Below, in pieces: positions 5,724 to 17,965 of a DNA stretch of 21,501 bases. The translations under genes were made by a program, and so were the position numbers. This DNA is from a virus, in the IMG/VR virus record IMGVR_UViG_3300017749_000161, positions 1 through 21,501 of that record; one strand, 5' to 3'. The number at the start of each line of letters is the position of its first letter. Position 1 is the first letter of the stretch. The notes below the pieces were generated by a model. That model searched no databases and had not been told where the DNA came from. It was given only the letters and a program-made list of their open reading frames with translations.

Positions 5724-5743
5724 TGTTTACATTAAGGTTAATA
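5724..5743. promoter_or_regulatory. Operator-like half-palindrome, copy 2
   Basis: TGTTTAC-N6-GTTAATA, a degenerate copy of the TGTTTAC-N6-GTAAACA inverted repeat found perfectly at 17946-17965. It overlaps the -35 and spacer of the plus-strand promoter. A bound regulator here would block RNA polymerase. Confidence 0.5.
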
Positions 5744-5754
5744 TAGTATTTAAT
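5726..5754 (+). promoter_or_regulatory. Sigma70-like promoter of the plus-strand gene
   Basis: TTTACA (5726-5731), a 17-base spacer, and TTTAAT (5749-5754). The leader that follows contains ACATTCAAAAAACAAAGGG and ends a few bases before the ATG. The same spacing, -35, upstream bases (AAAGTGT) and leader occur at the minus-strand promoters at 17935-17963 and 12123-12151, which strengthens the call well beyond a lone hexamer match. Confidence 0.75.
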
Positions 5755-5787
5755 ACACCTACATTCAAAAAACAAAGGGTTACACAC

Positions 5788-6243
5788 ATGGCTAAAGCAA
5801 CTCACAACGGTACTTGTCAGGCTTGCGGTAGAAAGCAGGCTGTAAATGTTAAGACTGGTTTACTGGCTAAACATGGTTATGTAGTAGACTGGGGATTCCA
5901 TGGCGTTTGTTCGGGTGCTGACAAGATTCCTGCCGAGCATGACCTCACACACATGGTTGCAGTACAGGCAGAGCTAGATGAAATGGCAACTCACCTTGAG
6001 ACTAGAAAAGCTGAAGATATAGACGCTGTATTACTTGCACCTAAAGAAGATCGCTTTGGCCCTAAAGAATGGTTCACTGAAGAGAACATCAACAAAGCCA
6101 GAACCTACAATAGAAGCTGGGCAGAACTGCAAGAGAAAGAGCGCTACCTCGGTGAGTACAAAGCCAAAAACATTCGCCAGCACGTTGCTTACCTTACAGA
6201 AGAAGTAGCCCCAGTAAACGGCAAAGAATTAACTGCAAGATAA
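5788..6243 (+). CDS. Zinc-ribbon-like phage protein of unknown function (only plus-strand gene)
   Basis: A 151-residue hydrophilic protein. Its N-terminus has a CxxC knuckle (C10, C13) followed by conserved-looking KHGYVVDWGFHGVCSG, with H29, H38 and C41 as further possible metal ligands. The rest is helical and charged (WAELQEKERYLGEYKAK). I recognise the N-terminal pattern from uncharacterised phage and prophage proteins, but no function is known to me. It is the only gene against the direction of all others, splits the MuF and scaffold genes, and has its own promoter, leader and terminator, as expected for a moron inserted into a late operon. AAAGGG eight bases before the ATG is the ribosome site. 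Confidence 0.85.
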   Translation: MAKATHNGTCQACGRKQAVNVKTGLLAKHGYVVDWGFHGVCSGADKIPAEHDLTHMVAVQAELDEMATHLETRKAEDIDAVLLAPKEDRFGPKEWFTEENINKARTYNRSWAELQEKERYLGEYKAKNIRQHVAYLTEEVAPVNGKELTAR

Positions 6244-6250
6244 ACTAACC

Positions 6251-6266
6251 GCCCCCGAAAGGGGGC
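6251..6266 (+). repeat. GCCCCC-GAAA-GGGGGC hairpin downstream of the plus-strand gene
   Basis: A perfect six-pair GC stem with a GNRA-type GAAA tetraloop begins seven bases after the stop codon. It lacks a direct T run. The identical hairpin, in the sense of its own gene, follows the gene at 17754-17900, so it appears to be part of a repeated cassette. It may protect the mRNA 3' end or aid termination. Confidence 0.72.
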
Positions 6267-6282
6267 TACCCTTTCCCCCTTT

Positions 6283-6311
6283 AGCCCAGCTTACTTAGTG
6301 GGCTTTTTTTT
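6283..6311 (+). terminator. Rho-independent terminator of the plus-strand gene
   Basis: AGCCCA, a ten-base loop, TGGGCT and then a run of eight T. It ends plus-strand transcription before it enters MuF antisense. The minus-strand 14-residue ORF lies across the same bases, its lysine codons being the complement of the T run. Confidence 0.8.
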
Positions 6312-6335
6312 CTTCTTCTTTTTACCGTATGCCAT
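6291..6335 (-). CDS. Tiny lysine-rich peptide (14 residues)
   Basis: A short frame reading MAYGKKKKKKKPTK. Its ATG lies two bases after the MuF stop, with GAGGAA positioned upstream as a ribosome site. I recall similar short Lys-rich peptides at comparable places in other phage genomes, though this was not checked. It could bind DNA or the acidic scaffold. The AAA/AAG run is also the complement of the opposing terminator T tract, so chance cannot be excluded; the good start context argues for a real gene. Confidence 0.5.
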   Translation of the reverse strand: MAYGKKKKKKKPTK

Positions 6336-6337
6336 AA

Positions 6338-7219
6338 CTATTCCTCGTCGAATACTGGTCGCCAGTGGTGTCGGCAGTTGTAACCACCGCGCACGATAAA
6401 GGGATCGCCAGACGACTTGCCCTGCCAGCTACCCGCCCAAGTGTCTGAAATTTCTTCTTCAGTAAATACCTGCCCCGCGTGTTCTTTGCAAAATGGTCTG
6501 CTGTCCCTGATGACATCGCCATAATATTTCCACCTGGTCGCGCCGCTTTGCTTACCGATAGCTGTGTTGATAGATGCGTCGAACTGCATCAGGCTGTCTT
6601 GTGCCATCTGGGTGCTGTAGCGTCTAAGGTTATTGCCTGCCCTGTCTCTAGCGAACTTGGTGCGTAACTGCTCGGCTGCTTCCTTGGCTGCCGCAGGTGA
6701 ACCGCTGTTAGCTATATCAACAAGCCGCTGGGCTTCTACATCGTCACTCTGAATATATACGCCATTGATTGTCTGGCGTAGGTTCTTCACTGTGTCGTTA
6801 AAGCTACGGCCTGTCAGGGTTGACTGATAGACCTCATTGGCTAAGACATCAAGATATTCATTAGCAACTGACTCAAAGCCTTGGAATGATAGACGCTGCA
6901 ACTGGTTTATAACCGTAGGGTCGAGCTTAGTGAAGTCGCCATACGTCTGAAGCATATCCTGTGCATCGGCTGCGACAGAGCCGTACCCTCTAACCACTGC
7001 ATCAACCTCGGACAGGTAAGCCTCATCCATTACAGCCTTTAGCTGCGGTCTAGCATTGATAGCCCACTCAGTATCAAACAGATTGCCACCCTGTAGCGGA
7101 GCGTCAGCCATAACACCTGCTACGCGCTCCTCTAAGGTCACTAGGGCATCGGCTAGGCGTTGCTGATGGGTATCGGCAAGCCTATCCAATATCTCGTCGT
7201 ACTGGTTATCTGTGGGCAT
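6338..7219 (-). CDS. Minor head protein, MuF-like (phage head morphogenesis)
   Basis: A 293-residue mostly helical protein. The C-terminal block has KYYGDVIRDSRPFCKEHAGQ, then FTEEEISDTW, and ends with YNCRHHWRPVF. This D-x-R-x-x-C ... N-C-R-H/C-x-W pattern is the hallmark of the Mu gpF-like minor head protein domain found next to portals in many phages. It is thought to sit inside the capsid near the portal and may be ejected with DNA. Its ATG overlaps the portal stop (TAATG). Length and order (terminase, portal, MuF, scaffold, capsid) are standard. Confidence 0.85.
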   Translation of the reverse strand: MPTDNQYDEILDRLADTHQQRLADALVTLEERVAGVMADAPLQGGNLFDTEWAINARPQLKAVMDEAYLSEVDAVVRGYGSVAADAQDMLQTYGDFTKLDPTVINQLQRLSFQGFESVANEYLDVLANEVYQSTLTGRSFNDTVKNLRQTINGVYIQSDDVEAQRLVDIANSGSPAAAKEAAEQLRTKFARDRAGNNLRRYSTQMAQDSLMQFDASINTAIGKQSGATRWKYYGDVIRDSRPFCKEHAGQVFTEEEISDTWAGSWQGKSSGDPFIVRGGYNCRHHWRPVFDEE

Positions 7220-8601
7220 TATTCAGCCTCGTCGTTGAACTGCCCTAATACTTGTGTGCTTTGGTCTATTTCAAGGTGCGACTTTGCCAACTTCTCATCG
7301 TCTAGCACTAGGTCTGCAATCTGCTTATCTATCTCTTGCGACAGGGTGACAGACTTAACGCCAGTGGCTCGCATCTGCTGCAAAAAGATTAGCTCTTTGT
7401 CCATGTCGCGAATGTCGAAGCTGTCTGGGTAGAATATTTCTACGTCAGGGGTTAGCTCTTGATAATCGCACCACAAGTTCCAGATCTGCTCCTCAACTAG
7501 CTCGAGAATGTCAGCCTTTTCAGCCAGCTTTGCATTAAGCATCTGAAACTCTGTCTGCATTGCTACGCCAGACTGCGTGATTGCCTCTGTGCCGCGAACT
7601 GCGCCCATGTGAGACATACGATTAATGTATTCAATCTTATCGTTAATAGACGCTCTTACGCTGTCTAGGTTCTGGCCGCTTGGCTGTAGCATATAGGGCT
7701 TCATCTGCGCATCCATATCATCAGGCATATTGATAACAGAACCAGCACCAGCACTAGCGTCAGTCTCGTATGACTTAACTAGTGTCGGGTGATTGCTAAT
7801 GCGAATAAGCTGCTCTACTTCCGATAGCTCCTGATAGATAGCCCGCTGCATATAGGCAACGTCAGAAAGATCGCTTATGCCAATGCCGCGCACTACTGAA
7901 CGCTGTGCAGGTACAAACACCGCAGGAATCCGTCCAAGCGGGTTGTCAATTGTCTCTATGTGGCGGTCTTGCTCGTTGATGCTCTCATACAGCTCGACCT
8001 TATCTTTGTGCCAGCAGCGGTAATATACGCGCTTCTCGGTGTCGCTAATTTCCTCGATAGACTCGCGAACCTTCAGGTAGCAAAGCTCGTAGCGGCCTGA
8101 CGGCATACGCTCATACTCCCAGTCAAATACATTCTCTGGGGTGAACATGGTCACATAAGGTCTTATGTCCTGCCCTAGCTCCTCGGCCTTAGTGCGGGCG
8201 TTAGATTCTGGCTTATCGACTATCACCCAGACGTTACCGTAAACACTAGCCCAGATATTAGCCTCGCGCATAAACGCGTTAAAGCTACGACCATCAAGGT
8301 CAGCATCCTTCATAAAAGGTTCAAGGGCATAGTTACCAGCGGCAGAGTTAAAGCTGCGCACTGGTGGCTGTCGCCATAGGAAGCTGCTGTAGATGTGGAC
8401 AATGTTCTTGCTGTGGTTGTCCATTGGGGTCAGGTCAAGGCGGCGATTGTATTCGTCTTTGTCCTCGTTGACGTAGCGCGTCAGGTAAGCGCCGTCCCGG
8501 TAATCTTCACCACCCATATAGCTGCGAAGATAAAACTCCCAGCGATACTTGTTATTGTCGTATTGTGGGTGCGTATATTCTAAGTCTTTGCTGTAAGCCA
8601 T
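7219..8601 (-). CDS. Portal protein (DUF4055 type)
   Basis: A 460-residue protein starting MAYSKDLEYTHPQYDNNKYR. The N-terminal LRSYMGGEDYRDGAYLTRY, then DNHSKNIVHIYSSFLWRQPP and a later QSGVAMQTEFQMLNAKLAEK are typical of portal proteins of the DUF4055 family. The portal forms the dodecameric ring for DNA entry and head-tail joining. I place the start at ATG 8601, which overlaps the terminase stop as TAATG and has GGAG just upstream, rather than the GTG three codons earlier. The MuF gene follows with the same one-base overlap. Confidence 0.85.
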   Translation of the reverse strand: MAYSKDLEYTHPQYDNNKYRWEFYLRSYMGGEDYRDGAYLTRYVNEDKDEYNRRLDLTPMDNHSKNIVHIYSSFLWRQPPVRSFNSAAGNYALEPFMKDADLDGRSFNAFMREANIWASVYGNVWVIVDKPESNARTKAEELGQDIRPYVTMFTPENVFDWEYERMPSGRYELCYLKVRESIEEISDTEKRVYYRCWHKDKVELYESINEQDRHIETIDNPLGRIPAVFVPAQRSVVRGIGISDLSDVAYMQRAIYQELSEVEQLIRISNHPTLVKSYETDASAGAGSVINMPDDMDAQMKPYMLQPSGQNLDSVRASINDKIEYINRMSHMGAVRGTEAITQSGVAMQTEFQMLNAKLAEKADILELVEEQIWNLWCDYQELTPDVEIFYPDSFDIRDMDKELIFLQQMRATGVKSVTLSQEIDKQIADLVLDDEKLAKSHLEIDQSTQVLGQFNDEAE

Positions 8602-9812
8602 TAACTCCACCGTCTCGGTTGTTCAACTATTCGCTCTGTGCGTACTGGGAACAGGTACTCTACCAGATAGCCTAAAGCATCATTCATGTGGTCAAATCCG
8701 TCCTTATTAGGAACGCTCGTCCCTTCTTTGTAGGTCTGGCGTTCTAAGGATTCGATTGTCTGTTTACATTTGGGGTCTATCAACAACTTCCGCTGACCAT
8801 CGCTTGATAGTAGCCGTGAGTTGACCGCATTTATTCTGTCTCGTACCAGTGCGTGTCTGGTCTTAGCCTTAACCTCAAAACCTGCGTTCTGAAGTATGCT
8901 TAAATCTGTGCGCCCACCTGCGCTAGTCTTGCGCTGCCTAGAGGCAGGGTCGGGGTAGATGATAACACGTTTGTCGGGGTAGCGCGTTCGCAATTCCTGC
9001 GCCATCTCATCGGTATTGCTGCCCCACATAACTACTTCATCAATAGCCAGCAGTGTGTCGTGGTGTCGGACACATACAACTGCACTCATCGGGTCTAAGT
9101 TGAAGTCCATGCCAACGTGCAAGGTGTGGTGGTCTGCCTCGATCTTACCAACAGATTCTTCACGATTAAAGCCGTAGTAGATAATCCCGCTATAGTTTAC
9201 GAACTGAGCATTGTATTCCTGATTGAATGTGCGCTCGTCTAGGTCTTGTTTGGCCTGCTCTATCTCTGTCTGCGGTACGTTGCCGCCTTGGATAGTTGTG
9301 TACTGAAAGCTCTGCCAATCATCATCACCATCTAGCCCTTTGCTGTACAGGTCATAGAAATGGTTGCGACCTTTAGGCGTACCGATAAACAGAGCAGAGC
9401 CTAGCCTGTCAGACAGAGACGGTCTGATAACCTCATACCAAGCCTCTGGGCGCATATCTGCAAACTCATCAAGTACAACAAAGTCTAACGCTCTACCTCG
9501 CAGGTTGTTAGGCTTCTCTGCTCCCTTCAGGCTGATAGTGCTGCCGTTAATCAGGCGCATCGTCAGGCTGCTTTCGTTTGTCTTGGTTAGGTATTCAGGG
9601 GGAATGGTCTGTATAAGCATATCCCATGCAATCTCTTTAGCAGAGCCGTAGGTCGGTGCTACATACCAGCAGTTTTTATCCTTACCAGATATGGCTGCTC
9701 GCAGTATCTCCCCAGTGCTAAGGAATGTCTTGCCGAATCTTCGCCCAGCAACAACGCTACGGAAACGGCTAGTGCTACAAAATATCTCACTCTGTGGCAG
9801 GGTCAGTTGCAC
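8601..9812 (-). CDS. Terminase large subunit
   Basis: A 403-residue DNA packaging motor. The ATPase domain shows Walker A as AGRRFGKT (residues 22-29) and Walker B FVVLDE (111-116). The GTPKGRNHFYDLY segment (144-156) is the coupling motif common to terminases. The nuclease domain has the first acidic residue in GMDFN (D236) and the last in DHMNDALGY (D374, D378). The likely start is GTG at 9812, because an in-frame TAG lies three codons upstream. The gene overlaps the small subunit by 26 bases and has no clear ribosome site, so coupling is likely. Confidence 0.95.
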   Translation of the reverse strand: MQLTLPQSEIFCSTSRFRSVVAGRRFGKTFLSTGEILRAAISGKDKNCWYVAPTYGSAKEIAWDMLIQTIPPEYLTKTNESSLTMRLINGSTISLKGAEKPNNLRGRALDFVVLDEFADMRPEAWYEVIRPSLSDRLGSALFIGTPKGRNHFYDLYSKGLDGDDDWQSFQYTTIQGGNVPQTEIEQAKQDLDERTFNQEYNAQFVNYSGIIYYGFNREESVGKIEADHHTLHVGMDFNLDPMSAVVCVRHHDTLLAIDEVVMWGSNTDEMAQELRTRYPDKRVIIYPDPASRQRKTSAGGRTDLSILQNAGFEVKAKTRHALVRDRINAVNSRLLSSDGQRKLLIDPKCKQTIESLERQTYKEGTSVPNKDGFDHMNDALGYLVEYLFPVRTERIVEQPRRWS

Positions 9813-10167
9813 GACTGTCTACTACTATATTGATTGGGGGAATCTCTTGCACTTCTGCCTCGGCTTCTTTCCAGCCACCTTGTGTCTTTAAGTAAAAAAT
9901 ATTTGCCGTTACATTGCCATCCTGAGCCAACTGGACAAGGTTGCTACCCATGTTTGCAATCTGTTTGCATCTGCCCTTTTTATAAGCGGTAGAAACTTCA
10001 GGTTGTCGCTTCTCTACTTCCCTTAATGTCTTTTCGCTTATGTCGAAATAGTCGGCTATCTGGCCTTTGGTTAGGACAGCAGCCAGCGCCTGAATCTCAA
10101 TTACTTGGTCAGGGGTAAAGACTACAGGGGGTCTGCCACCACCCTCGCCTTGGTTTCCGTTTTTCAT
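9787..10167 (-). CDS. Terminase small subunit
   Basis: A 126-residue protein with a Gly-rich start, then a helix-turn-helix region (TPDQVIEIQALAAVLTKGQI followed by ADYFDISEKTLREVEKR) and helices ending in NIFYLKTQGGWKEA. This is the layout of small terminases that recognise the packaging start site and load the motor. It overlaps the large subunit gene. ATG at 10167 lacks a strong nearby Shine-Dalgarno; GAGG is about 14 bases upstream and overlaps the end of the previous gene. Confidence 0.85.
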   Translation of the reverse strand: MKNGNQGEGGGRPPVVFTPDQVIEIQALAAVLTKGQIADYFDISEKTLREVEKRQPEVSTAYKKGRCKQIANMGSNLVQLAQDGNVTANIFYLKTQGGWKEAEAEVQEIPPINIVVDSRATDPATE

Positions 10168-10175
10168 CTAGGGGG

Positions 10176-10430
10176 TTATACCTCAGTGCCAAAGGCAGCG
10201 CGTATATTCATTAGAGGATTTTGCAGCATAACATCATGCTCATCAGGCGGTAAACCGTTCACCTTACAATCAACAGCATCACACCAAAAGCGCAGGGCAG
10301 TAATAACAGGCTGTGCGGCTGTGGGATTGTCTATAAGGCTTTGCGTAATGCCATCAACCTTAGACAGCAGATCGTGCCATCCGTTTTCTTCGCACTCGAT
10401 TATACGGCTCACAATATTCAACTGGTGCAT
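10176..10430 (-). CDS. Conserved-looking small protein upstream of terminase, unknown function
   Basis: An 84-residue soluble helical protein (MHQLNIVSRIIECEENGWHD start; later VITALRFWCDAVDCKVNGL). It has a strong ribosome site, GGAGG seven bases before the ATG, and lies eight bases from the terminase small subunit gene, so it belongs to the packaging operon. I do not recognise the family. Two Cys in WCDAVDCK are the only notable residues. Confidence 0.7.
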   Translation of the reverse strand: MHQLNIVSRIIECEENGWHDLLSKVDGITQSLIDNPTAAQPVITALRFWCDAVDCKVNGLPPDEHDVMLQNPLMNIRAAFGTEV

Positions 10431-10481
10431 ATTAACCTCCGCAGGCTAACAATTTGGTTGTGCCGTTATTGTAAACGCTGG

Positions 10482-10559
10482 TTACTTTTTGTGCAATCTA
10501 AGGTCTTGAACAGCCACAAGGATAAGGGCTGAGAGAATAAAGCCAATCATGTATAGCAT
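10482..10559 (-). CDS. Possible 25-residue single-span membrane peptide
   Basis: Reads MLYMIGFILSALILVAVQDL then RLHKK. It is one hydrophobic span followed by a basic tail, which would give a cytoplasmic C-terminus. A GGAG lies about nine bases before the first ATG. Small hydrophobic frames arise by chance, so support is limited to the start context and the clean span-plus-basic-tail layout. Confidence 0.38.
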   Translation of the reverse strand: MLYMIGFILSALILVAVQDLRLHKK

Positions 10560-10642
10560 TTCCGAAAATCTCCGGCTGGTGAATTTGCGGGCATTGTAGG
10601 TGCTATCAGATATGATTAGAAATGATGCTTATTGATGGTTGA

Positions 10643-10660
10643 TATATCAGGAATGATATA
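10643..10660. repeat. Inverted repeat TATATCA-GGAA-TGATATA
   Basis: A perfect seven-base inverted repeat with a four-base centre in an AT-rich stretch of the intergenic region. Nearby TGAT/ATCA words recur (10609-10640). The size suits a dimeric DNA-binding protein or a minor hairpin. Confidence 0.55.
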
Positions 10661-10668
10661 GGGAGCCT

Positions 10669-10767
10669 GTTGCGACTACAGGTCGGCCAAGCCTGCTTTA
10701 CGGTGCGGAATGTCACCAAGTCTAAATTCAGTGCCGCGTTGTGACTACTGGTGCGGCAAGCCAGCTT
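10669..10767. repeat. Two imperfect 30-base direct repeats, 69-base period
   Basis: Positions 10669-10698 and 10738-10767 match at 24 of 30 bases (shared GTTG-GACTAC and CAAGCC-GCTT). The first overlaps a CCTGT...ACAGG hairpin (10666-10682). The second lies within TGCCGC...GCGGCA (10732-10758). The spacing and structure suggest protein-binding repeats, perhaps for terminase, or a structured RNA. Confidence 0.65.
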
Positions 10768-10788
10768 CAAGGGGCAGGAGGGGTTACC

Positions 10789-11055
10789 CTAGTCAAAAAA
10801 GATTATAAGCAAAGCAAGGAATATGGCAAGCCCATTTGATGCAGGCTCCTTGATAAGCCATTCTTTGATCCGGTCGCATGGATCATCACCAATCAAATTG
10901 TATAAGCGCTCCTCTATCCACCAGTTTGCTTTTTTAAATACGCTCCAGTTACTTTTGTCTGGCTGCCAATCTTCGTTTATTTTTTTATCGGCAAACTCAT
11001 TTACTGAACTAACCATTTCTTCTAGCTCCTCTTTGCTTAATTTAGCTACTGGCAT
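10789..11055 (-). CDS. Small protein with C-terminal membrane anchor, unknown function
   Basis: An 88-residue protein. The first 65 residues are charged and helical (LSKEELEEMVSSVNEFADKK; WWIEERLYNLIGDDPCDR). The end, ASNGLAIFLALLIIFFD, is a single hydrophobic span at the extreme C-terminus, the topology of tail-anchored proteins. It overlaps the preceding repeat-protein gene by ten bases and is the last gene of the cassette driven from 12151. Function unknown; a membrane-linked accessory role is inferred. Confidence 0.72.
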   Translation of the reverse strand: MPVAKLSKEELEEMVSSVNEFADKKINEDWQPDKSNWSVFKKANWWIEERLYNLIGDDPCDRIKEWLIKEPASNGLAIFLALLIIFFD

Positions 11056-11598: not shown

Positions 11599-11753
11599 TA
11601 GCACACCCCCTGCAAGCAATCGTTATAGCTCATCGTAGATACTATCAAGTACAGCACAAACAAGATTGCGCCTGCTGCCATAAACGTACGCGATTCCGTA
11701 CGCTTTTCTTTTGCTATGCGGTCGCGCGCATATTTATAATCGTAGTTGATCAT
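11598..11753 (-). CDS. 51-residue single-span membrane protein
   Basis: Reads MINYDYKYARDRIAKEKRTE, then a hydrophobic span (FMAAGAILFVLYLIVSTM) and a short tail with two Cys (YNDCLQGVC). The N-terminal half is basic, so the N-terminus should face the cytoplasm. Its ATG overlaps the previous stop by four bases (ATGA) and its own stop overlaps the next ATG (TAATG). This exact coupling at both ends strongly supports a real gene despite its size. Confidence 0.75.
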   Translation of the reverse strand: MINYDYKYARDRIAKEKRTESRTFMAAGAILFVLYLIVSTMSYNDCLQGVC

Positions 11754-12091
11754 TGGCCTGCCTCATATCCAGCGAATGCCTCTGGCTTGGTGTATGTCTC
11801 ACCGTAGTATTCCAAAACCGATTCGCGCAATGTAGTTTCAAGGGATAGGTACATTTCATCTTTGAGCATTAAACTTGCAGGGTCGTTGCTTCTGTAAAGC
11901 AGACGCAGATAGCCAACGCGCTTAGATACGCAAATAGCAGGGGAAATGTAATCATCTTGCCAGCTAGGATAGGCAAGCAGCCACTCTAAAACTAGCGCAT
12001 CTTTTTGATCATCAGAAAGGTCTATAACATCGCCTTCCCAGTCACAGCGGTGAACCAGATCGTCTACATAATCTTTAACTTGTTTTTTCAT
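11750..12091 (-). CDS. Soluble acidic protein, first gene of the 12 kb cassette, unknown function
   Basis: A 113-residue helical protein starting MKKQVKDYVDDLVHRCDWEG, with many Asp/Glu/Trp/Tyr and ending AFAGYEAGQ. ATG at 12091 is chosen because AGAAGGG lies eight bases upstream and the longer form would start inside the transcribed leader near the promoter. It leads a chain of five overlapping genes reaching 10789. No family recognised. Confidence 0.72.
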   Translation of the reverse strand: MKKQVKDYVDDLVHRCDWEGDVIDLSDDQKDALVLEWLLAYPSWQDDYISPAICVSKRVGYLRLLYRSNDPASLMLKDEMYLSLETTLRESVLEYYGETYTKPEAFAGYEAGQ

Positions 12092-12122
12092 GTGGAACCC
12101 TTCTTTTTTTGAATGTCTGCAC

Positions 12123-12151
12123 ATCTTGCCCGATGTTTACTAAACCGTCAA
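12123..12151 (-). promoter_or_regulatory. Promoter of the 12 kb accessory cassette
   Basis: TTGACG, a 17-base spacer and CAAGAT, followed by a leader with ACATTCAAAAAAAGAAGGG before the ATG at 12091. Bases AAAGTGTT just upstream and the leader match the promoters at 5726 and 17963. It overlaps the last bases of the NinG gene. The -10 is weak but the conserved layout supports it. Confidence 0.65.
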
Positions 12152-12153
12152 CA
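12134..12153. promoter_or_regulatory. Operator-like inverted repeat, copy 3
   Basis: TGTTTAC-N6-GTCAACA, an inverted repeat with one mismatch in seven-base arms and the same six-base centre as the perfect copy at 17946-17965. It overlaps the -35 and spacer of the promoter here. Confidence 0.6.
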
Positions 12154-12591
12154 CTTTATTTCGCCAATGCGCCATTCCTCTACTTTTATCTGTTCTTTAA
12201 GGTCGCGGGCAAAGGCAATAACTTCCTCTCGGTCGTACCTCTTAGCTGGCCTCCATGCCATACGCTCCATAGCTTTAACCCTGCGCTCGCCATAGGTGTC
12301 GACCATGTATTGCCTGTAGCGTAAGACGTAGTGCGCTTGTTTCATGCCCCAGCAGTTGCAATGGGGGCACTGTGGTTTTATGTTAAATTCTGCAAGTTTG
12401 AAAATGGTTCTGTGGCGGGGTATAAAGTGGCCGCCCTGAAGGTTCTTATAGTGGTCTACCTTGTCGCAAGTAACGCACTGGGCGTAGCCATTGTCATCTG
12501 CCGCCTTTAACCTTACAAGCCGCTGCAAGAGCTTTGCTGCCTTCTCCATCTCCTGCGCGACTGTGGTTTTCTTTCTACCTTTCTTCGCCAT
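12148..12591 (-). CDS. ninG: NinG-like recombination protein
   Basis: A 147-residue basic protein of the lambda NinG (Rap) family, which acts on recombination intermediates, including Holliday junction-like structures, in lambda. It has a Lys-rich start, CVTC (39-42), then NLQGGHFIPR with H55, FNIKPQCPHC with CPHC (75-78), and a helical C-terminal half. The Cys pairs around GGHF form the zinc-bound HNH-like core of the family. It overlaps the DUF3310 gene by 17 bases. Along with NinB nearby it makes a lambdoid recombination set. Confidence 0.85.
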   Translation of the reverse strand: MAKKGRKKTTVAQEMEKAAKLLQRLVRLKAADDNGYAQCVTCDKVDHYKNLQGGHFIPRHRTIFKLAEFNIKPQCPHCNCWGMKQAHYVLRYRQYMVDTYGERRVKAMERMAWRPAKRYDREEVIAFARDLKEQIKVEEWRIGEIKC

Positions 12592-12787
12592 ATTCTAGCT
12601 CTAGTAATAGTTCGCAATAGTGAATAGCTTTCCTAATGTCCTCAGCACCGTTCTTGCTGCCATGCCTTGTAATGTATTTAACTACGTTGCCCTCGCAGTA
12701 GTCCAAGCTGTTCTTGTAGATGTACTCGATAGGCTGAATTGCAAGTTGGTAATGGCTGCCGCCAGTCTGTTTACTAAGTGCGCTCAA
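12575..12787 (-). CDS. DUF3310 protein (nucleotide kinase-like small phage protein)
   Basis: A 70-residue protein. GGSHYQLAIQPIEYIYKN, DYCEGNVVKYITRHGSKNG and AEDIRKAIHYCELLLELE give the H-Y-x(n)-P-I-E ... G-x-x-x-K-Y-x-x-R pattern of DUF3310, a common phage family sometimes labelled nucleotide kinase, although direct function is unproven. The likely start is TTG at 12787, whose bases overlap the zinc-ribbon stop (TTGA). No closer ATG in frame keeps the conserved GGSHY. It overlaps the NinG start. Confidence 0.85.
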   Translation of the reverse strand: MSALSKQTGGSHYQLAIQPIEYIYKNSLDYCEGNVVKYITRHGSKNGAEDIRKAIHYCELLLELEYGEER

Positions 12788-12966
12788 TGTTCGGTCTCCT
12801 CAGTAGATAAATTAATTTCATCAGGAATATTGAGATCGCAGCTAGGGCATAAACCGTAAGCAGAATCATCATCACCAAGCCAATACGTAAGAGGCTGTTC
12901 ACATTCTTCGCAATAGACTCGAACCAATTTAATAGACCTTTTAGGAAACTCAACAACTTTACTCAC
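12784..12966 (-). CDS. Small zinc-ribbon protein
   Basis: A 60-residue acidic protein with two Cys pairs, C19-EE-C22 and C40-PS-C43, the classic four-Cys zinc ribbon, and an acidic tail ending STEETEH. The start is GTG at 12966, which overlaps the phosphoesterase stop (GTGA). The alternative frame over the same DNA (hydrophobic, 12774-12956) lacks such coupling, so I take this one as real. Probably a nucleic acid or protein binding accessory of the recombination region; function unknown. Confidence 0.75.
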   Translation of the reverse strand: MSKVVEFPKRSIKLVRVYCEECEQPLTYWLGDDDSAYGLCPSCDLNIPDEINLSTEETEH

Positions 12967-14132
12967 CCTCCCACCTTTATTTTTACCCGCGAATCTTCAC
13001 CGCTGTCTTTGTGATATACCACCGCCGTCATCGAGCGCTCTGCACCGTAGCCGCTGTCGCTGTGCCATTGGTCGGTAGCAGTTAGGCTGCCCCAATGCTC
13101 AAAGTGCATAGAACCGACCTCTCTGGCTGTGTGGTGGTGTATGTGTCCCAGATGGCAGTAACGGTTCTTTGACTCTGCCCACTCGTCGTCTAAATTCTTA
13201 ATCACCGTCTGTAGGATCTGCTCGTGCTTGATGCGGTCTCCATGGTGGAATACGAATAGATTGTTGTGCCATTGATAGGATATAAACTTGCTGTAGTTCT
13301 GCACTACCTCAACTCTTGGCTCATTGCTGTATAGCAACTCTAGGCAGCTTGATAAGTGACAGGCCATATCGTAATCGTGATTCCCGCGTACATTAACCAC
13401 AACCACTTTTTCGTGCGTCTGTAGCATCTTGTCGATTAGGACATTAAACAGCCTGCCTGCCAGCTTAAAGGTCTTTCCAATGCGTGTGTCTACGTCTACC
13501 GGGGTTCCTTTGGTTGTAGTATTAAAACTACTGTCAGCGTGAAAGAAATCACCTACGTTTAACAATACACCAGTGCCAGCGTTACCGACTCGATTAGCCA
13601 GCCTGTCAGTTGAGTCGATTAGTATCTGGGTCGCTATCTTTACATCCCAGTCATCGTCGTCAACTTTAGTCTCTGAGTCGGCAAGCATTCCAAAGTGGTG
13701 ATCGCCAATCATATACATGGCTAGATAATCATCACGAACTTGAGCGGGGGCAGCGACAGGCGGTTTATATCCCTGAATATCATCTTTGACGCCCTCAATC
13801 ATTAGGTCTAGGCGCTCTTTTAGGCTTTTCTTTTGCGGCTCTTGGATCACCCACTGCAAGGCTACTGAGCCATCTTCTTTATAGGCTGTAGATACGCGCT
13901 TAGCATCAAAGCCCTCGGCGGTCTGGTGAACTAGGTCGCGGTGCGGTGCAACACCTTTCTCTGCTGCATAACCTTCAAGGCGCTTAATAGTTCTATCAAT
14001 ACCTCGTCTGTTCAAACCTAACGAATCAGCAGCTTTAATATGTGATCCATGCTGAATCACTGCGTTTAAAACTCTTTCTTGAGCTTCGCTTCTCACAAAC
14101 TCCAATAAAGTGCGCGGGTCAATTCTGTCCAT
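12963..14132 (-). CDS. Calcineurin-like metallophosphoesterase with N-terminal helix-turn-helix
   Basis: A 389-residue protein. Residues 1-60 form a helix-turn-helix-like part (AVIQHGSHIKAADSLGLNRR, then GIDRTIKRLEGYA). After a linker comes a metallophosphoesterase domain with the ordered metal motifs GDHHFG, GDFFH, RGNHDYD, FHHGD and LGHIHHH. All metal-binding residues appear intact, so a phosphodiesterase or nuclease activity on DNA or nucleotides is expected. Related phage proteins are often called DNA repair exonuclease or phosphoesterase. It begins on the NinB stop (TAATG) and ends on the zinc-ribbon start, inside the recombination operon. Exact substrate unknown. Confidence 0.88.
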   Translation of the reverse strand: MDRIDPRTLLEFVRSEAQERVLNAVIQHGSHIKAADSLGLNRRGIDRTIKRLEGYAAEKGVAPHRDLVHQTAEGFDAKRVSTAYKEDGSVALQWVIQEPQKKSLKERLDLMIEGVKDDIQGYKPPVAAPAQVRDDYLAMYMIGDHHFGMLADSETKVDDDDWDVKIATQILIDSTDRLANRVGNAGTGVLLNVGDFFHADSSFNTTTKGTPVDVDTRIGKTFKLAGRLFNVLIDKMLQTHEKVVVVNVRGNHDYDMACHLSSCLELLYSNEPRVEVVQNYSKFISYQWHNNLFVFHHGDRIKHEQILQTVIKNLDDEWAESKNRYCHLGHIHHHTAREVGSMHFEHWGSLTATDQWHSDSGYGAERSMTAVVYHKDSGEDSRVKIKVGG

Positions 14133-14599
14133 TATTCTACCTGTTGTAGTTGTAATTTACGGTATTCGCTTTCCGGGTCAATCTGCAAGGTGTATCCAAG
14201 ATCAAAAGCCCAGCTATGCACCTCATTTAAAAAGTGGTGCATTTCTCCACTGTCCAATTTGCTTGTGTGACGCAACTGGTTCTCTATAACAGTCTTGCCA
14301 ACCTGAATCGATTCAGTGCCTAAAAACTTCTGTTTCAATAGTAGTTTAACATTTTCGGGGGTGTAGGTAGGGTCGCGCTTTATAACCCATGCCGATAGCT
14401 CTCTACACCAAGCATGAAACATGGCGTTCTGCGAAGTTGTGCGGGGGTTTCTGTAAGGCTTTAGGGTGATAGCGCATGGCTTTGCGTAGTCCCAAACCTT
14501 TAAGCGGTCAGCAATGTAACCAAGCCGCACATCAATCTCTGCGGCTCGGAACACCTTCACTGTATCGCCTTGGCTCACACTAACGCCCTCGAAAGCCAC
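14132..14599 (-). CDS. ninB: NinB-like recombination protein
   Basis: A 155-residue protein of the lambda NinB family, a single-stranded DNA binding recombination mediator. The segment ITLKPYRNPRTTSQNAMFHA leads to WCRELSAWVIKRD, typical of NinB with its (R/K)-(T/S)-xx-QNxxxHaW core, followed by VKLLLKQKFLG. It overlaps the preceding small gene by 25 bases and the phosphoesterase by one base, so the set is translated together. Confidence 0.85.
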   Translation of the reverse strand: MAFEGVSVSQGDTVKVFRAAEIDVRLGYIADRLKVWDYAKPCAITLKPYRNPRTTSQNAMFHAWCRELSAWVIKRDPTYTPENVKLLLKQKFLGTESIQVGKTVIENQLRHTSKLDSGEMHHFLNEVHSWAFDLGYTLQIDPESEYRKLQLQQVE

Positions 14600-14880
14600 T
14601 TTTGACTTAACATATCTTCAGCAGACTCTAACCTAGTGATAAAAGGCTTGTCGGCATCGTTGTTATAAGATGCCTTTGCCATTCTTAAATCATAATCAGT
14701 TATAATCTTGCACTGCTTGGCACGAAGTCTGCTGTGCAGTGTTTTGCTGTTAATACCTGCAACCTCAGCCATATGCGGCAAACTATACTTTTCGCCTGTT
14801 TTTAACCCTCCAGTCTTTCCTGCAAATAAATACTTTTTGGGTGCTTTGACAGGTGGATTCTTTCGTCGATCACTACGCAT
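14575..14880 (-). CDS. Small basic DNA-binding-like protein
   Basis: A 101-residue basic protein starting MRSDRRKNPPVKAPKKYLFA. The middle (SLPHMAEVAGINSKTLHSRL) has the shape of a helix-turn-helix: a hydrophobic first helix, A-G-I turn and T-L-x-x-R-L recognition helix, as in AsiA-like or excisionase-like folds. It overlaps both neighbours. A replication or regulatory role is inferred only from the motif and place. Confidence 0.65.
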   Translation of the reverse strand: MRSDRRKNPPVKAPKKYLFAGKTGGLKTGEKYSLPHMAEVAGINSKTLHSRLRAKQCKIITDYDLRMAKASYNNDADKPFITRLESAEDMLSQKWLSRALV

Positions 14881-15274
14881 ACTTTAGCTCTCCTGTTCCA
14901 TCGTAATAATAACCATGGCTTGCAAGATAATGCTGCTTCTGGGCTTCACGCTCTGCACCTTGTAGCCAGCTAATGTCGGTTATGCCCATCATAATCGACC
15001 TGCCCCTGATGGTTTCATTTTGCAACTGTTCGCTTGCTTGATTTGCGTGTATCTGAGCATAAGGCGATACACCGCCTGTCTTTTTGGTTCTAGCTAACCA
15101 GCTATTTATGAATTTCGGCATTCCAACTTTGGTTTTGCGTTTTGACTTATTGGCAAATAGCCACATACGCATCGCTTCCAGCTCGTCCCTAACCATTTCA
15201 TCGCCGTAGCTTTTAATCAGCTCGTCATACAGGTCATCAGGCACAATATATTCTTCACCAGTTTTAATTAGCAT
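14873..15274 (-). CDS. Replication-associated protein, partial initiator-like (DnaT/gpO-like tail segment)
   Basis: A 133-residue protein. MVRDELEAMRMWLFANKSKR followed by KTKVGMPKFINSWLARTKK is a pattern often seen near the ends of phage replication initiator proteins (W-L-x-x-N-x-x-R-x-x-x-x-x-x-x-F-I-x-x-W-L-x-R). No winged-helix initiator part is visible before it, so here it stands alone. Ends YYYDGTGELKYA. Position between a winged-helix-like gene and NinB fits replication. The exact role is not known. Confidence 0.6.
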   Translation of the reverse strand: MLIKTGEEYIVPDDLYDELIKSYGDEMVRDELEAMRMWLFANKSKRKTKVGMPKFINSWLARTKKTGGVSPYAQIHANQASEQLQNETIRGRSIMMGITDISWLQGAEREAQKQHYLASHGYYYDGTGELKYA

Positions 15275-15489
15275 TATTCAGCCCCCATCAAGAAATATCT
15301 TGATACAGTGCATTGCTCGTCAAATCGGTTAGTAACTTTGATTCGATGCGACAGAATTGGGTTTCCCTCAGCTTTAAGCTCGTAGATCCTAGTAGCAAGC
15401 TGTGTTACGCCAAGCTCTTGGTAGGCTTCTAATGATGTGATCGTGTTTCCACTTTCAAGGTGTTGCAGTATTCGTTCTTTCTGGCTCAT
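15274..15489 (-). CDS. Small winged-helix / HTH protein
   Basis: A 71-residue protein starting MSQKERILQHLESGNTITSL and continuing EAYQELGVTQLATRIYELKA, matching the helix-turn-helix family common in phages that reads K-x-x-I/V-L-x-x-L-x-x-G ... I-T-x-x-E-A-x-x-x-x-G-(V/I)-x-x-L-x-x-x-I-x-x-L. A later strand pair (SHRIKVTNRF, CTVSRYFL) gives the wing. ATG at 15489 has GGAGAT upstream and its stop overlaps the next ATG. A regulatory or replication-accessory role is inferred. Confidence 0.78.
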   Translation of the reverse strand: MSQKERILQHLESGNTITSLEAYQELGVTQLATRIYELKAEGNPILSHRIKVTNRFDEQCTVSRYFLMGAE

Positions 15490-15770
15490 TATCTTATCTC
15501 CGTTGGTTCACGCTAAAGCGCTCACTATTTTTTTGAATGGTTATTTTTTTTAACAATTTTTTCTCAGGTACTTTTACCCTTTTACAACAAAAAGTAAATT
15601 TTCGAAGAAAGGGCTAAGCGACTTTCCGGCAGCAGTTGTTATCGTATCGAATATCTGGTCTATCCTTTAGCCAGTGCCGACTGACTGTAGGGGCTATGTC
15701 GAGAGGGTCAACTCGGTGTCAGGGGTTTAATTTAAGTGATTCCCCATCCTCTAGCCCGATAACTGTGCAG

Positions 15771-15799
15771 AGTATTATCTATATCAACCTGTTTGTAAA
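15771..15799 (-). promoter_or_regulatory. Candidate promoter upstream of the HTH-replication genes
   Basis: TTTACA, a 17-base spacer, AATACT. The bases TGTTTAC-N6-GTTGATA (15801-15782) are a degenerate form of the operator seen at 17946 and sit in the same place relative to the -35. The -10 matches only four of six positions. Confidence 0.45.
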
Positions 15800-15810
15800 C
15801 ACAAAACAGG
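15788..15810. repeat. Inverted repeat CCTGTTT-N9-AAACAGG
   Basis: Perfect seven-base arms around nine bases, just after the stop of the XRE-type gene and over the candidate promoter -35. It could be an operator; as RNA it is a weak hairpin with no T run suited to a terminator. Confidence 0.5.
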
Positions 15811-15812
15811 AA

Positions 15813-16019
15813 CTATTTTCCTAGCTTTAAAAAATCAGGAATCTCCACGTTTAACACATTGCATATGCTTTGCATGGTGTGCAGCTTCATGTTTGGCTGC
15901 GCTCTCCAGCGTATAACCTGCTGTGGGCTTGTCTTAGCGATCCTAGATAACTCTGCGTTACTGATACCTGCGTTAGCTTGCGCGGCTCGTACAGCCTTTC
16001 CTGCGTCTATAAATTGCAT
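15813..16019 (-). CDS. Cro/C1-type (XRE family) transcriptional regulator
   Basis: A 68-residue protein with one helix-turn-helix of the XRE family: GKAVRAAQANAGISNAELSR, then IAKTSPQQVIRWRA and MQSICNVLNVEIPDFLKLG. The five-helix layout and size match Cro-like phage regulators that bind short inverted repeats as dimers. AGGTAGGA precedes ATG at 16019. It is the only clear single-domain repressor-like gene here, so it is a candidate for binding the TGTTTAC-N6-GTAAACA sites. That link is inferred. No CI-like peptidase repressor is seen in the window. Confidence 0.83.
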   Translation of the reverse strand: MQFIDAGKAVRAAQANAGISNAELSRIAKTSPQQVIRWRAQPNMKLHTMQSICNVLNVEIPDFLKLGK

Positions 16020-16083
16020 ATTATAATCCTACCTGTGATATATTGTTATTGACCGGCTGGCGCTGGTCTTTCTCCTGTTGGTT

Positions 16084-16101
16084 GCCCCCCGCGAGGGGGG
16101 C
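16084..16101. repeat. Strong GC hairpin GCCCCCC-GCGA-GGGGGGC
   Basis: A perfect seven-pair stem with a four-base loop between the SSB-like gene stop and the XRE-type gene. There is no T run on either side, so it is not a standard terminator. It may slow transcription or protect mRNA ends, and it resembles the hairpins at 6251 and 17731. Confidence 0.65.
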
Positions 16102-16109
16102 ATTTAACT

Positions 16110-16379
16110 CTAAAAAGGTATATCTTCATCAAACTCGGCAGTCTTTGGCTGCACTGCTTTCTGCGCTTGTGCCATACCCTGCTGCTGGGCTTGATCTTTT
16201 GCGCTAAACTTTAGGCTCATATACTTGGTTCCTTTCGAGCTAGTATTAACCCAGCCGCTTACCCAGTATTCTTTTCCGTCAATCATGGCACTACCTTTGC
16301 GATCTGGGTGTGTCTCCGACTCTTTCTTGTCGTTCACAAACATCGCGCCGCTGTTGTCTTTTTGCTCGTAATTACTCAT
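16110..16379 (-). CDS. Single-stranded DNA-binding-like protein
   Basis: An 89-residue protein with a beta-rich start (SAMIDGKEYWVSGWVNTSSK, GTKYMSLKFSAK), a Gln/Ala-rich flexible linker, and the acidic tip FDEDIPF at residues 83-89. The tip D-(D/E)-x-I-P-F is the hallmark C-terminus of SSB proteins that recruits partner enzymes. The body is shorter than classical SSB, so this is a small phage version. It follows the ERF gene by nine bases with AGGAG seven bases before the ATG, a natural pair for single-strand annealing. Confidence 0.75.
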   Translation of the reverse strand: MSNYEQKDNSGAMFVNDKKESETHPDRKGSAMIDGKEYWVSGWVNTSSKGTKYMSLKFSAKDQAQQQGMAQAQKAVQPKTAEFDEDIPF

Positions 16380-16388
16380 TTCTTTCTC

Positions 16389-17024
16389 CTATTGTGCTGT
16401 TCTAAATTCAGGGGTTTTCATTGTGGCGCGTTCTTGGGTTGTAAATACGCCGCCTTTGCTTGGTGCTTTCCAAAGTAGCTGCTTCTCTGTGTCGGTCAAC
16501 TCTTTCCACGCTTCGTTAGCTGTAGATAAGTCGCCAGTTGCCAGACCGTCCTTGATAGCCTTAACGCTTGGCATCAGGTCGATAATGGAATCTTCGTAGC
16601 TTTCCTGCTCGGCCTTCTTAACTGCCTTGTCGCTTCTTAGCATTGCCGCTTCTGCGTCATCATCTACTTGCGGGATTCCAGCCATGGCAGCCAATCCGTA
16701 GCGTCTTGCGTAAGAAATACACGAACCGCCAGATTGCGGGTCGCGCTTAACCATGGGCAATAGAAACTCTTGCTCTAACCACTGACCAGATGTGTGCATG
16801 AGTCTTGTGCATACTCCTACACTGTTATCGGTGCTAATAGGAAACTGAACGTAGCTGAGGCCATTGGCCGCAAACGGCTCTTTAATTACCTGCATAACGT
16901 CCGACAAGTTCGCGTATTTGGATTTAAAGAAAGGGTTGCCACTGCCTTTGACTGCTCCCCCCATAACTGCTTGCGCTACGCATAATGCGGTTGCAATTTC
17001 GTCAATTTTTTCGCTTGAATACAT
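16389..17024 (-). CDS. erf: ERF family single-strand annealing recombinase
   Basis: A 211-residue protein. NPFFKSKYANLSDVMQVIKE, then GLSYVQFPI, CTRLMHTSGQW, GSCISYARRYGLAAMAGI and DDDAEAA give the ordered core of the ERF family (P22 Erf-like), which anneals complementary single strands and helps circularise or recombine phage DNA. The C-terminal third is helical, with EAWKELTDTEKQLLW as a small helical module. ATG at 17024 has GGAG six bases upstream; a TTG four codons earlier overlaps that site and is rejected. It is followed by the SSB-like gene. Confidence 0.9.
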   Translation of the reverse strand: MYSSEKIDEIATALCVAQAVMGGAVKGSGNPFFKSKYANLSDVMQVIKEPFAANGLSYVQFPISTDNSVGVCTRLMHTSGQWLEQEFLLPMVKRDPQSGGSCISYARRYGLAAMAGIPQVDDDAEAAMLRSDKAVKKAEQESYEDSIIDLMPSVKAIKDGLATGDLSTANEAWKELTDTEKQLLWKAPSKGGVFTTQERATMKTPEFRTAQ

Positions 17025-17049
17025 ATTTTTCTCCAATTATTGAATGGTT

Positions 17050-17078
17050 ATGATACTAAAAAGTTAATGATGTGGTAA
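17050..17078 (-). promoter_or_regulatory. Candidate promoter before the ERF gene
   Basis: TTACCA, 17 bases, TATCAT, followed by AACCATTCAA and the ribosome site. It overlaps the stop of the preceding gene. The start GTGTTACCA and the ATTCAA leader word recall the three related promoters, but the inverted repeat is not kept. Confidence 0.45.
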
Positions 17079-17247
17079 CACTTTTGTCAGGGTCAGCGCA
17101 ATTAGCTGATGCGCACTCCCCTGCTGCGGTTAGCGAGCCGTATGCGTGATAGTATTCATCCGGCATATTATCTCGCGCTGGGTTGTGCATGGCGTAATCT
17201 TTCTCTGCCAGCTCGTAAAAGTAATTTTGAAAGTCGTTAGTGAACAT
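17056..17247 (-). CDS. Small hypothetical protein
   Basis: A 63-residue acidic protein starting MFTNDFQNYFYELAEKDYAM, rich in Asn, Asp and Tyr, with two Cys in ECASANCADP. A good ribosome site, AGGAGA, lies just upstream and overlaps the stop of a short coupled frame. Family not recognised. It sits in the early part of the recombination operon, where small host-takeover genes are common. Confidence 0.6.
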   Translation of the reverse strand: MFTNDFQNYFYELAEKDYAMHNPARDNMPDEYYHAYGSLTAAGECASANCADPDKSVTTSLTF

Positions 17248-17255
17248 ATTGTCTC

Positions 17256-17333
17256 CTAATCTACAGCATTCCGGAGCATGCTCTTAATCTGGCGAACAGT
17301 GCTTAGCTCTACTGCAATGCAGGCTGGGTTCAT
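17256..17333 (-). CDS. Possible 25-residue coupled peptide
   Basis: Reads MNPACIAVELSTVRQIKSML then RNAVD. Its ATG overlaps the stop of the upstream gene (ATGA) and GAGGAGCC lies upstream; the next gene begins eight bases after its stop. The sequence is helical and could be a minimal regulator or a leftover of a longer gene. Support is mainly the coupling. Confidence 0.42.
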   Translation of the reverse strand: MNPACIAVELSTVRQIKSMLRNAVD

Positions 17334-17686
17334 GCCTTCGGCTCCTCTGTAGATGGGGTGTCCATAGAGTCCAAAATGAGCAATCTCGCGCGAGCCTCCT
17401 TTTCCTTCCGCTCCATTAACGGCAAGAGCGTCTGCATGATCGTCATTAGGGTTGTTTCAGTGTTTTTTCTTTCCCGATGGTATAAAGCGGTAATCGTGTT
17501 GCGGAGCTGGTGGTCTAGCTCTAATCCAGCGCTCCCCTCGTATAGAGCACGCGCTTGAGAGTCTAAGGTTTCGTATGTTTCTATAAGGGCGTAAAGGGCG
17601 CGAGCATCGACAAGTACACGGCTACTCAAGCCCCTGTGATTACGCTCCTGATTCAAGTCTCTTTTGATTGTCTCTATAAAATTCAT
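17330..17686 (-). CDS. Helical coiled-coil-like protein, unknown function
   Basis: A 118-residue, highly charged helical protein starting MNFIETIKRDLNQERNHRGL. It has long heptad-like stretches (LEKEARARLLILD-type Leu spacing near the end) and ends DTPSTEEPKA. The start ATG at 17686 overlaps the stop of a short upstream remnant frame whose last residues, TPPTEEPQG, mirror this gene's own C-terminus. That suggests a former tandem pair. No family recognised. Confidence 0.65.
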   Translation of the reverse strand: MNFIETIKRDLNQERNHRGLSSRVLVDARALYALIETYETLDSQARALYEGSAGLELDHQLRNTITALYHRERKNTETTLMTIMQTLLPLMERKEKEARARLLILDSMDTPSTEEPKA

Positions 17687-17730
17687 CCTTGCGGCTCCTC
17701 TGTAGGTGGTGTGTTAAGCAAATCAATAAT
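17683..17730 (-). pseudogene. Remnant C-terminus of a paralogue of the next gene
   Basis: The frame reads IIDLLNTPPTEEPQG and stops in ATGA at the next gene's start. It mirrors LLILDSMDTPSTEEPKA at the end of that gene, and the DNA is alike over about 25 bases (CTACAGAGGAGCCG in both). It has no start codon of its own and abuts the hairpin at 17731, as if an upstream copy was cut away. Confidence 0.5.
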
Positions 17731-17746
17731 GCCCCCTTTCGGGGGC
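17731..17746 (-). repeat. GCCCCC-GAAA-GGGGGC hairpin after the 48-residue gene
   Basis: On the minus strand it is base-for-base identical to the hairpin after the plus-strand gene at 6251-6266, again a few bases past the stop codon. ATTATT follows, too short for a strong terminator. It marks the end of the 17731-17965 cassette. Confidence 0.72.
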
Positions 17747-17753
17747 TGTTAAA

Positions 17754-17900
17754 TTAAGATTTTCTTGCAGCTTCTTTTTCTTCAAAGTACTTCAGGTCGC
17801 TTTCAAACTGCGCGCCGAATCTGGCGTGTTCTGCTGGTGTCATCTCTGCTAAAACTGCTTTGATTTCGTCGATTTTTTCTTGAAAAGTTGGAATAAACAT
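17754..17900 (-). CDS. 48-residue acidic helical protein, unknown function
   Basis: Reads MFIPTFQEKIDEIKAVLAEM and ends EEKEAARKS; nearly all helix with alternating charge. ATG at 17900 fits the conserved leader (AAAAGGG, nine bases before). A longer form from 17936 would begin inside the -10 box, so it is rejected. Promoter, leader, gene and hairpin together form a compact unit like the plus-strand gene unit. Function unknown; small early genes under a strong promoter often act on host proteins. Confidence 0.7.
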   Translation of the reverse strand: MFIPTFQEKIDEIKAVLAEMTPAEHARFGAQFESDLKYFEEKEAARKS

Positions 17901-17934
17901 CTGTGTAGCCCTTTTGTTTTTTGAATGTAGGTAC

Positions 17935-17963
17935 ATTATCTATTATGTTTACTATAATGTAAA
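17935..17963 (-). promoter_or_regulatory. Sigma70-like promoter of the early/recombination region
   Basis: TTTACA, 17-base spacer and GATAAT (five of six). It is the best of the related promoters. AAAGTGT upstream and the leader ACATTCAAAAAACAAAAGGG downstream are shared with 5726-5787. It lies just after the late-gene terminator and points into the recombination genes. Confidence 0.8.
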
Positions 17964-17965
17964 CA
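17946..17965. promoter_or_regulatory. Perfect operator-like inverted repeat TGTTTAC-N6-GTAAACA
   Basis: Seven-base perfect arms with a six-base centre (TATAAT on plus, ATTATA on minus). It covers the -35 and most of the spacer. Twenty bases with two-fold symmetry is typical of a phage repressor or Cro dimer site. Degenerate copies lie at the same place in the promoters at 5724 and 12134 and, more weakly, at 15782. Confidence 0.75.

Follow-up and report, generated by a model that had tools for sequence, protein, structure and literature searches.

The promoter-leader module and its three copies

The window analysed here is the whole of IMG/VR record IMGVR_UViG_3300017749_000161 (21,501 bases), a viral record classed as linear and probably a fragment, and the element under study is a promoter-leader module that occurs in it three times, at places called here slots A, B and C. 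The gene set is of the siphophage type, with TerL, portal, MuF, scaffold, major capsid and tail genes, NinB, NinG, ERF and an M15 endolysin, some of these names having been assigned by position and similarity only. Almost every gene lies on the minus strand, and only the accessory gene of slot A clearly departs from this. The nearest cultured relatives are the Pelagibacter phages HTVC111P/112P/202P/026P, with a TerL identity of about 52%, and related records are about 29-35 kb long. No near DNA match to the window was found among cultured phages. No T4 relative appeared among the best matches listed, and the carrier does not qualify as a T4-like myovirus.

Each copy of the module spans 53 bases. 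Copy A (5720..5772, plus strand) has a -35 box TTTACA at 5726-5731 and a -10 box TTTAAT at 5749-5754; copy B (12105..12157, minus strand) has TTGACG at 12151-12146, overlapping the stop codon of NinG, and CAAGAT at 12128-12123; copy C (17917..17969, minus strand) has TTTACA at 17963-17958 and GATAAT at 17940-17935. The two boxes are separated by a 17-nt spacer in all three. The leader core (5761-5772, 12116-12105 and 17928-17917) opens with ACATTCAAAAAA, whose first base lies 7 bases past the end of the -10 box at every copy (5761, 12116, 17928), and is followed by AAGGG and then by the ATG (5788, 12091, 17900). The coordinates and bases of these promoters, spacers and leaders agree in full with the original prediction, as does the inverted repeat TGTTTAC-N6-GTAAACA over the -35 box and spacer, predicted to be perfect in one place and degraded elsewhere: it has no mismatch at 17946-17965, one at 12134-12153 and two at 5724-5743, where the operator is half-degenerate.

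Pairwise identities of the 53-base copies were 44/53 for A-C, 39/53 for B-C and 33/53 for A-B. In 200 dinucleotide shuffles no match to site C exceeded 32/53, and no other place in the window scored above 29/53. A generic sigma-70 scan found promoter-like sites in the window no more often than in shuffles; it recovered promoter C and missed A and B, so that the case for the promoters rests on conservation and not on consensus. Since ACATTCAAAAAA stands 7 bases past each -10 box, we infer that the leader would begin at the 5' end of the transcript.

In slot A the leader, or 5' untranslated region (5761..5787, plus strand), is conserved in relatives, carries the ribosome-binding motif AAAGGG and is unstructured, with a predicted fold of 0 kcal/mol; it forms the 5' joint of the cassette described below. 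It precedes a gene of 151 amino acids (cargo A, phrog_17208; 5788..6243, plus strand) on the strand opposite to the head genes, which is also present in the relatives L058, L065 and L084. Past its stop codon lie a hairpin GCCCCC-GAAA-GGGGGC (6251..6266, plus strand; -14.7 kcal/mol, z -3.3) and a terminator-like hairpin with a T run (6283..6311, plus strand), which closes the slot. In slot C a gene of 48 amino acids (cargo C, family 11; 17754..17900, minus strand) is followed by a hairpin of the same sequence (17731..17746, minus strand), and another terminator-like hairpin (17973..17999, minus strand) separates the endolysin gene from promoter C. Promoter B drives directly a resident gene of family 1 (11750..12091, minus strand), and slot B of the window is therefore empty of cargo.

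Conservation of the module in related phages

When viral contigs were scanned for the exact pattern, about fifty stretches turned up in which the 53-base spacing was the same; further relatives were gathered by scans with TerL, M15 and NinG. When the copies were aligned and the relatives searched with an iterated position-weight matrix, 174 distinct sites were collected, 153 of them scoring at least 25; reversed sequences scored no higher than 12.6. The proposal that one module stands before accessory genes at three unrelated places is thus borne out, with conservation in relatives far beyond chance. Leaders of the types ACATTCAAAAAA, CATTCAATAAA and CTCAATCAATAAA occur among them.

A sequence-only model of the module, built on 60 sites, found three copies in each of four long records of clade I and mostly 2-4 in related clades. 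The model found no match in the pelagiphages HTVC111P, 026P and 112P, and a single partial match (E 1.9e-4) in Phage DSL-LC06. No comparable dispersed repeat was found in cultured phages among the largest families listed. Prophage carriers were sought among GTDB species representatives as well; the sole exact-pattern match lay inside a coding region of a Tissierellales metagenome-assembled genome and was attributed to chance. The module is conserved across a group of uncultured aquatic phages, nearly always at the same three places of the genome.

Three slots with changing cargo

The open reading frame (ORF) behind the module could be read at 148 sites: 19 in slot A, 60 in slot B, 62 in slot C and 7 elsewhere. 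Slot A lies between the scaffold and MuF genes, on the reverse strand; slot B follows NinG; slot C follows the M15 endolysin, ahead of the recombinase genes, and may hold tandem arrays of two or three units. Slot A was empty in 33 distinct contigs and filled in 22, with a median gap of 145 and 1073 bases, respectively.

These ORFs fall into 53 families; 15 recur in more than one slot, and a single family occupies all three. Slots B and C have their own resident genes, families 1 and 2, and a promoter directly before one of these marks an empty slot. In relatives, cargo 3 and cargo 23 are inserted at the slot B point that is vacant in the window.

Only one of 29 cargo representatives gave a Pfam match above the cut-off (DUF7249). 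Ten PHROG families without functional description matched this set, and scans of it with PADLOC and NCBIfam returned nothing strong. A role of the cargo in host takeover or anti-defence would be a guess by analogy with archaeal viruses, in which conserved promoters stand ahead of small early genes (PMC11065993).

Three further arrangements were noticed near the slots. A Lys-rich small ORF (MPKGKGTYGSKVGRPKKKKK...) lies between MuF and scaffold in the empty slot A of the distant relatives L095, L097 and L098. In slot B of L226 and L228, cargo 13 is followed by the gene that elsewhere follows slot A cargo (ATGGATACTTTAAAACCAGCACC / ATGAATACTTTAAAACCAGCACC), which suggests that a two-gene block moved between slots. 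Some relatives carry a second, divergent promoter-leader type (GTTTACTTGTGGTATAATGGCTATGCCATCACGGAATGGCACGTTC...AAAAATCAAAAAACC) before small ORFs on the opposite strand near slot C (L189:5664-, L171:7874-, L176:8971-, L162:2214- and L196:1418-), possibly another class of cassette.

Boundaries of the exchanged unit

Cargo families found in more than one slot allowed the limits of the exchanged sequence to be read. For cargo 8, present in slot A of L010 and in slot C of L222, the ORFs are 98% identical and the leaders 96%, the promoters 59% and the outer flanks about 51%; identity starts at ACATTCAAAAAA and stops past the hairpin GCCCC-TTCG-GGGGC. Cargo 7 (slots A and C; ORFs 92% identical) and cargo 23 (slots C and B; 94%) show like boundaries. 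Over the cross-slot pairs, promoters are 54-71% identical where the ORFs are 74-98% identical.

The reverse comparison, of 246 pairs with the same slot and different cargo, gave identities of 0.64-0.75 in the 40 bases upstream, 0.58-0.87 over the promoter and 0.96 at the leader, falling to 0.25-0.30 within about 40 bases. In these alignments the promoter stays with the slot, and the ORF behind it is replaced along with the leader and the 3' hairpin.

The hairpin stands directly past the cargo stop codon at 19 of 19 sites in slot A, 39 of 62 in slot C and 28 of 55 in slot B; most core genes have none there, and among random windows the rate is 0.65%. The core-gene exceptions are MCP, the SSB-like gene, M15 and XRE. 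Stems are of 5-7 bp with mostly 4-nt loops, and the sequence differs by cargo. Downstream, on the 3' side of the hairpin, the sequence is typical of the slot and not of the cargo. As most hairpins have no clear T run, cargo and resident genes are probably co-transcribed. Read in this way, the unit of exchange is a cassette of leader, ORF and hairpin behind a slot-bound promoter.

Lambdoid phages carry morons, extra genes with their own promoter and hairpin on either strand, and the units described here, small single genes of unknown function behind a promoter and in slot A on the reverse strand, likewise read as autonomous transcription units in a phage genome. Were they ordinary morons, inserted independently by illegitimate recombination and with convergent promoters, the promoter would travel with its gene; the identities between slots, such as the 59% and 98% of cargo 8, indicate that promoter and gene were not inserted together, and 53-base modules of fixed spacing at the same three sites do not look like convergence. 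This explanation is disfavoured for clade I and we consider it highly improbable.

Recombination at the leader and candidate agents

In slot A, two promoter alleles, one of the TTGACA and one of the TTTACA type, are both found ahead of cargo 5, 12 and 16. All six of the six combinations are present, a pattern that requires recombination to have occurred between promoter and ORF, within the leader or close to it. L232 and L231 agree through the end of NinG and the promoter into the first part of the leader; beyond this point one continues into the resident gene and the other into cargo 23, its hairpin and the resident gene.

Tyrosine integrase (PF00589) and serine resolvase (PF00239) were not found in 13 records, in which the controls worked (14/14 positive for the integrase search), and a search for RecT found none. 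An ERF-family single-strand annealing protein (16389..17036, minus strand; Pfam ERF, 8.6e-22) is encoded just downstream of slot C in the window and in five others of these 13 records. In L211 and L241, both of the ERF-less records that were inspected, Sak and a YqaJ nuclease occupy this position.

In lambdoid phages, experiments have shown that Rad52-like phage recombinases exchange fragments that have diverged (PMC3945230). The agents proposed here are annealing proteins of the same ERF/Sak type; the exchange itself is deduced from sequence, and it differs in having a recurrent joint. Homologous annealing is the most likely route of cassette exchange, and we infer that ERF or Sak would be its agent.

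Integron cassettes share much of this layout: a fixed promoter, insertion right behind it, units of one ORF and one hairpin, and tandem arrays as in slot C. The leader would then be an attachment site, the hairpin an attC-like element and the enzyme an unrecognised site-specific recombinase. An integron attC element measures about 57-141 nt and has paired R/L boxes. No element of this type was found, the stems of 5-7 bp being far shorter than attC, and the IntI tyrosine recombinase is missing from the 13 records, along with the resolvase. Moreover, leader and hairpin sequences vary, and the junction offsets shift by a few bases. We therefore regard recombination of the integron type as very unlikely.

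The operator and the XRE protein

In the clade of the window, the second half-site of the operator, GTAAAC, carries 8.5 bits, more than the 6.1 bits of the -10 box, and the spacing is exact in 30 of 32 distinct copies. The second half-site falls to 3.2 and 4.5 bits in the CTCAATCAA and CATTCAATAAA leader classes, where the leader is still conserved, its information content being inflated because the classes were defined on the leader. Conservation of the operator is limited to the window's clade.

The candidate binding protein is an XRE/Cro-type helix-turn-helix (HTH) protein of 68 amino acids (15813..16019, minus strand; Pfam HTH_26), encoded distally in the gene run of slot C. GTAAAC half-sites accompany XRE proteins at least 70% identical to that of the window, together with a group having the helix TSKPQVIRWR; VLRWRK-type proteins go with GTTTAG, and VSRQRVFQWR-type proteins with CTTTAC..GTAAAG. 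Strict co-evolution of protein and operator was only partly borne out: the L241/L256-type XRE proteins share the VIRWR helix yet have degenerate half-sites. The co-variation is suggestive. The distal position of the gene behind slot C would suit a feedback shut-off of slots A-C, and we tentatively propose, from the sequences, that the XRE protein may be the operator-binding repressor of the three units.

The information content, the exact spacing and the pairing of XRE and half-site types would all be expected of a classical dispersed regulon, in which three operons answer to one repressor and selection for co-regulation alone, without cassette exchange, keeps the module. Such a regulon leaves unexplained the replaceable ORFs, the cargo shared across slots, the sharp edges of identity and the combinations of promoter alleles with cargo; furthermore, the operator decays outside the clade and the leader does not. 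As a full account it is unlikely. The original prediction of a dispersed regulon stands as regards the repeated module, applies at most to the window's clade as regards one operator with one repressor, and is incomplete in that the module is not tied to particular genes.

The fourth site and neighbouring features

A weaker fourth copy of the module had been placed at 15801-15782. Its inverted repeat has 3 mismatches, a match of which about 1.1 are expected by chance, and the site has no leader and, in relatives, no second half-site; it is thus not a copy of the module. The site does hold a promoter-like TTTACA-17-AATACT (15771..15799, minus strand), and near relatives conserve the TTTACA -35 box there with GATAAT or AATACT.

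Downstream of this promoter-like sequence, between the XRE gene and a gene for 71 amino acids, lies a structured noncoding RNA (15574-15763, minus strand). It recurs in relatives, for example at L104:3968-4157 and L211:7840-8029, in 42 distinct sequences. Of its 36 pairs, 19 have changes on both sides, and 98.5% of cells are paired, compared with 32-40% in slid alignments. A search of the region against Rfam gave no credible family match, and the RNA is probably a novel family of these phages.

On the other side of the XRE gene, after the SSB-like gene, a GC-rich hairpin without a T run (16019-16110, minus strand) is present in 89% of relatives, so that one core junction also makes use of the hairpin. 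Between NinB and NinG a Calcineurin-like phosphoesterase with an N-terminal HTH-like stretch (12963-14132, minus strand) is conserved across relatives.

A model for cassette exchange

The observations are best explained, with good though not full confidence from sequence comparison, by fixed slots that have a common promoter-leader and swappable cassettes of leader, ORF and hairpin. Each slot would open with a promoter of the sigma-70 type, overlapped at the -35 box and spacer, in the window's clade, by a palindromic operator; an A-rich unstructured leader would follow, starting at the transcription start and carrying the ribosome-binding site. In slots B and C small accessory genes would plug in between this leader and the resident operon; in slot A they would form a unit on the reverse strand, flanked by the scaffold and MuF genes. 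A cassette would begin with the leader and contain a single small ORF, usually closed by a short GC-rich hairpin with a tetraloop directly past the stop codon; the slot would keep the promoter ahead of it and, on the far side, the ribosome-binding site and gene that follow. The leaders and hairpins of the different slots resemble one another, so that cargo could be swapped or added by short-homology annealing, between co-infecting relatives or between two slots of one genome, carried out by phage-coded proteins (ERF, or Sak with the YqaJ nuclease). The shared promoter would impose the same expression timing on each new cargo, and a phage DNA-binding protein, for which XRE is the candidate, would shut off all three units together.

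Some observations weigh against this model. In 20 of the 53 families most members have no hairpin; among them are the residents, families 1 and 2, while family 0 and others run closely into the next gene. In clade I the slot-specific sequence past the hairpin is unlike the leader, and ERF is absent in 7 of the 13 records. Finally, several cross-slot pairs rest on single contigs, which makes metagenomic misassembly at the shared leader possible.

Short-k assembly could indeed be confused by a shared leader of 12-28 bases and join the wrong cargo to a slot. The cross-slot families, however, are often diverged, with 74-82% DNA identity, and such families cannot stem from short-read misassembly; in addition, the hairpins differ by cargo, occupants of the slots recur in independent samples, and the 33 contigs with an empty slot A are distinct. 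An assembly artefact is the least probable of the explanations considered.

The broader proposal is of an integrase-free cassette system of tailed phages, with three docking sites under a common promoter, a shared pool of small cargo genes between constant leader and hairpin, transfer between sites and phages by annealing proteins and an arsenal of host-takeover or anti-defence genes in turnover throughout a large group of aquatic phages. In this full form we hold it possible, short of probable.

Relation to known systems

The PeSLs of T4-type phages, an early promoter with a stem-loop repeated between genes, are said to mediate gene shuffling (PMC4503421). Gene shuffling between relatives is seen here as a pattern, not as a process. 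In the phages studied here, which are of about 30 kb and unrelated to T4, a recurrent promoter stands at one end of the cargo and a recurrent hairpin at the other, and the two do not move together. Compared with PeSLs as summarised there, the promoter is bound to one of only three fixed slots, the exchanged unit runs from leader to hairpin, a palindromic operator overlaps the -35 box, and the hairpin follows the ORF on its 3' side and in most cases has no T run. The system works much like the PeSLs, and within the open papers compared it is set apart by the slot-bound promoters, the leader-to-hairpin exchange unit and the three fixed slots.

In cluster K mycobacteriophages, SAS/ESAS combine a constant start-associated sequence, placed ahead of unrelated genes, with an inverted repeat that varies by subcluster (PMC3203893), much as the leader does here with its clade-specific repeat. 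A genome there has more SAS sites, which tend to keep the same gene family, and the accessible part of that paper mentions neither a 3' hairpin nor swaps from one site to another. The SAS sequence GGGATAGGAGCCC was not found before the start codons here, where the leader is ACATTCAAAAAA, CATTCAATAAA or CTCAATCAATAAA. The archaeal virus SIRV2 has a conserved early regulatory sequence before small anti-defence genes and a candidate shut-off protein (PMC11065993). There too one regulatory sequence precedes many unrelated small genes and can serve as bait for accessory genes; the promoters are archaeal and lie at the genome termini, and the portion of the paper available does not describe cassette boundaries or exchange between slots.

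The joint identified here would define, at the level of sequence, where a swap of small phage genes starts and stops, and would tell the part that remains at the site from the part that moves. In a group without a close cultured relative, the constant leader and hairpin may be used as bait to find uncharacterised accessory genes, of which 53 families were collected here, just as anti-defence genes of archaeal viruses were reached through conserved early promoters. It also becomes testable whether short intergenic phage sequences are kept for recombination, for expression, or for both.

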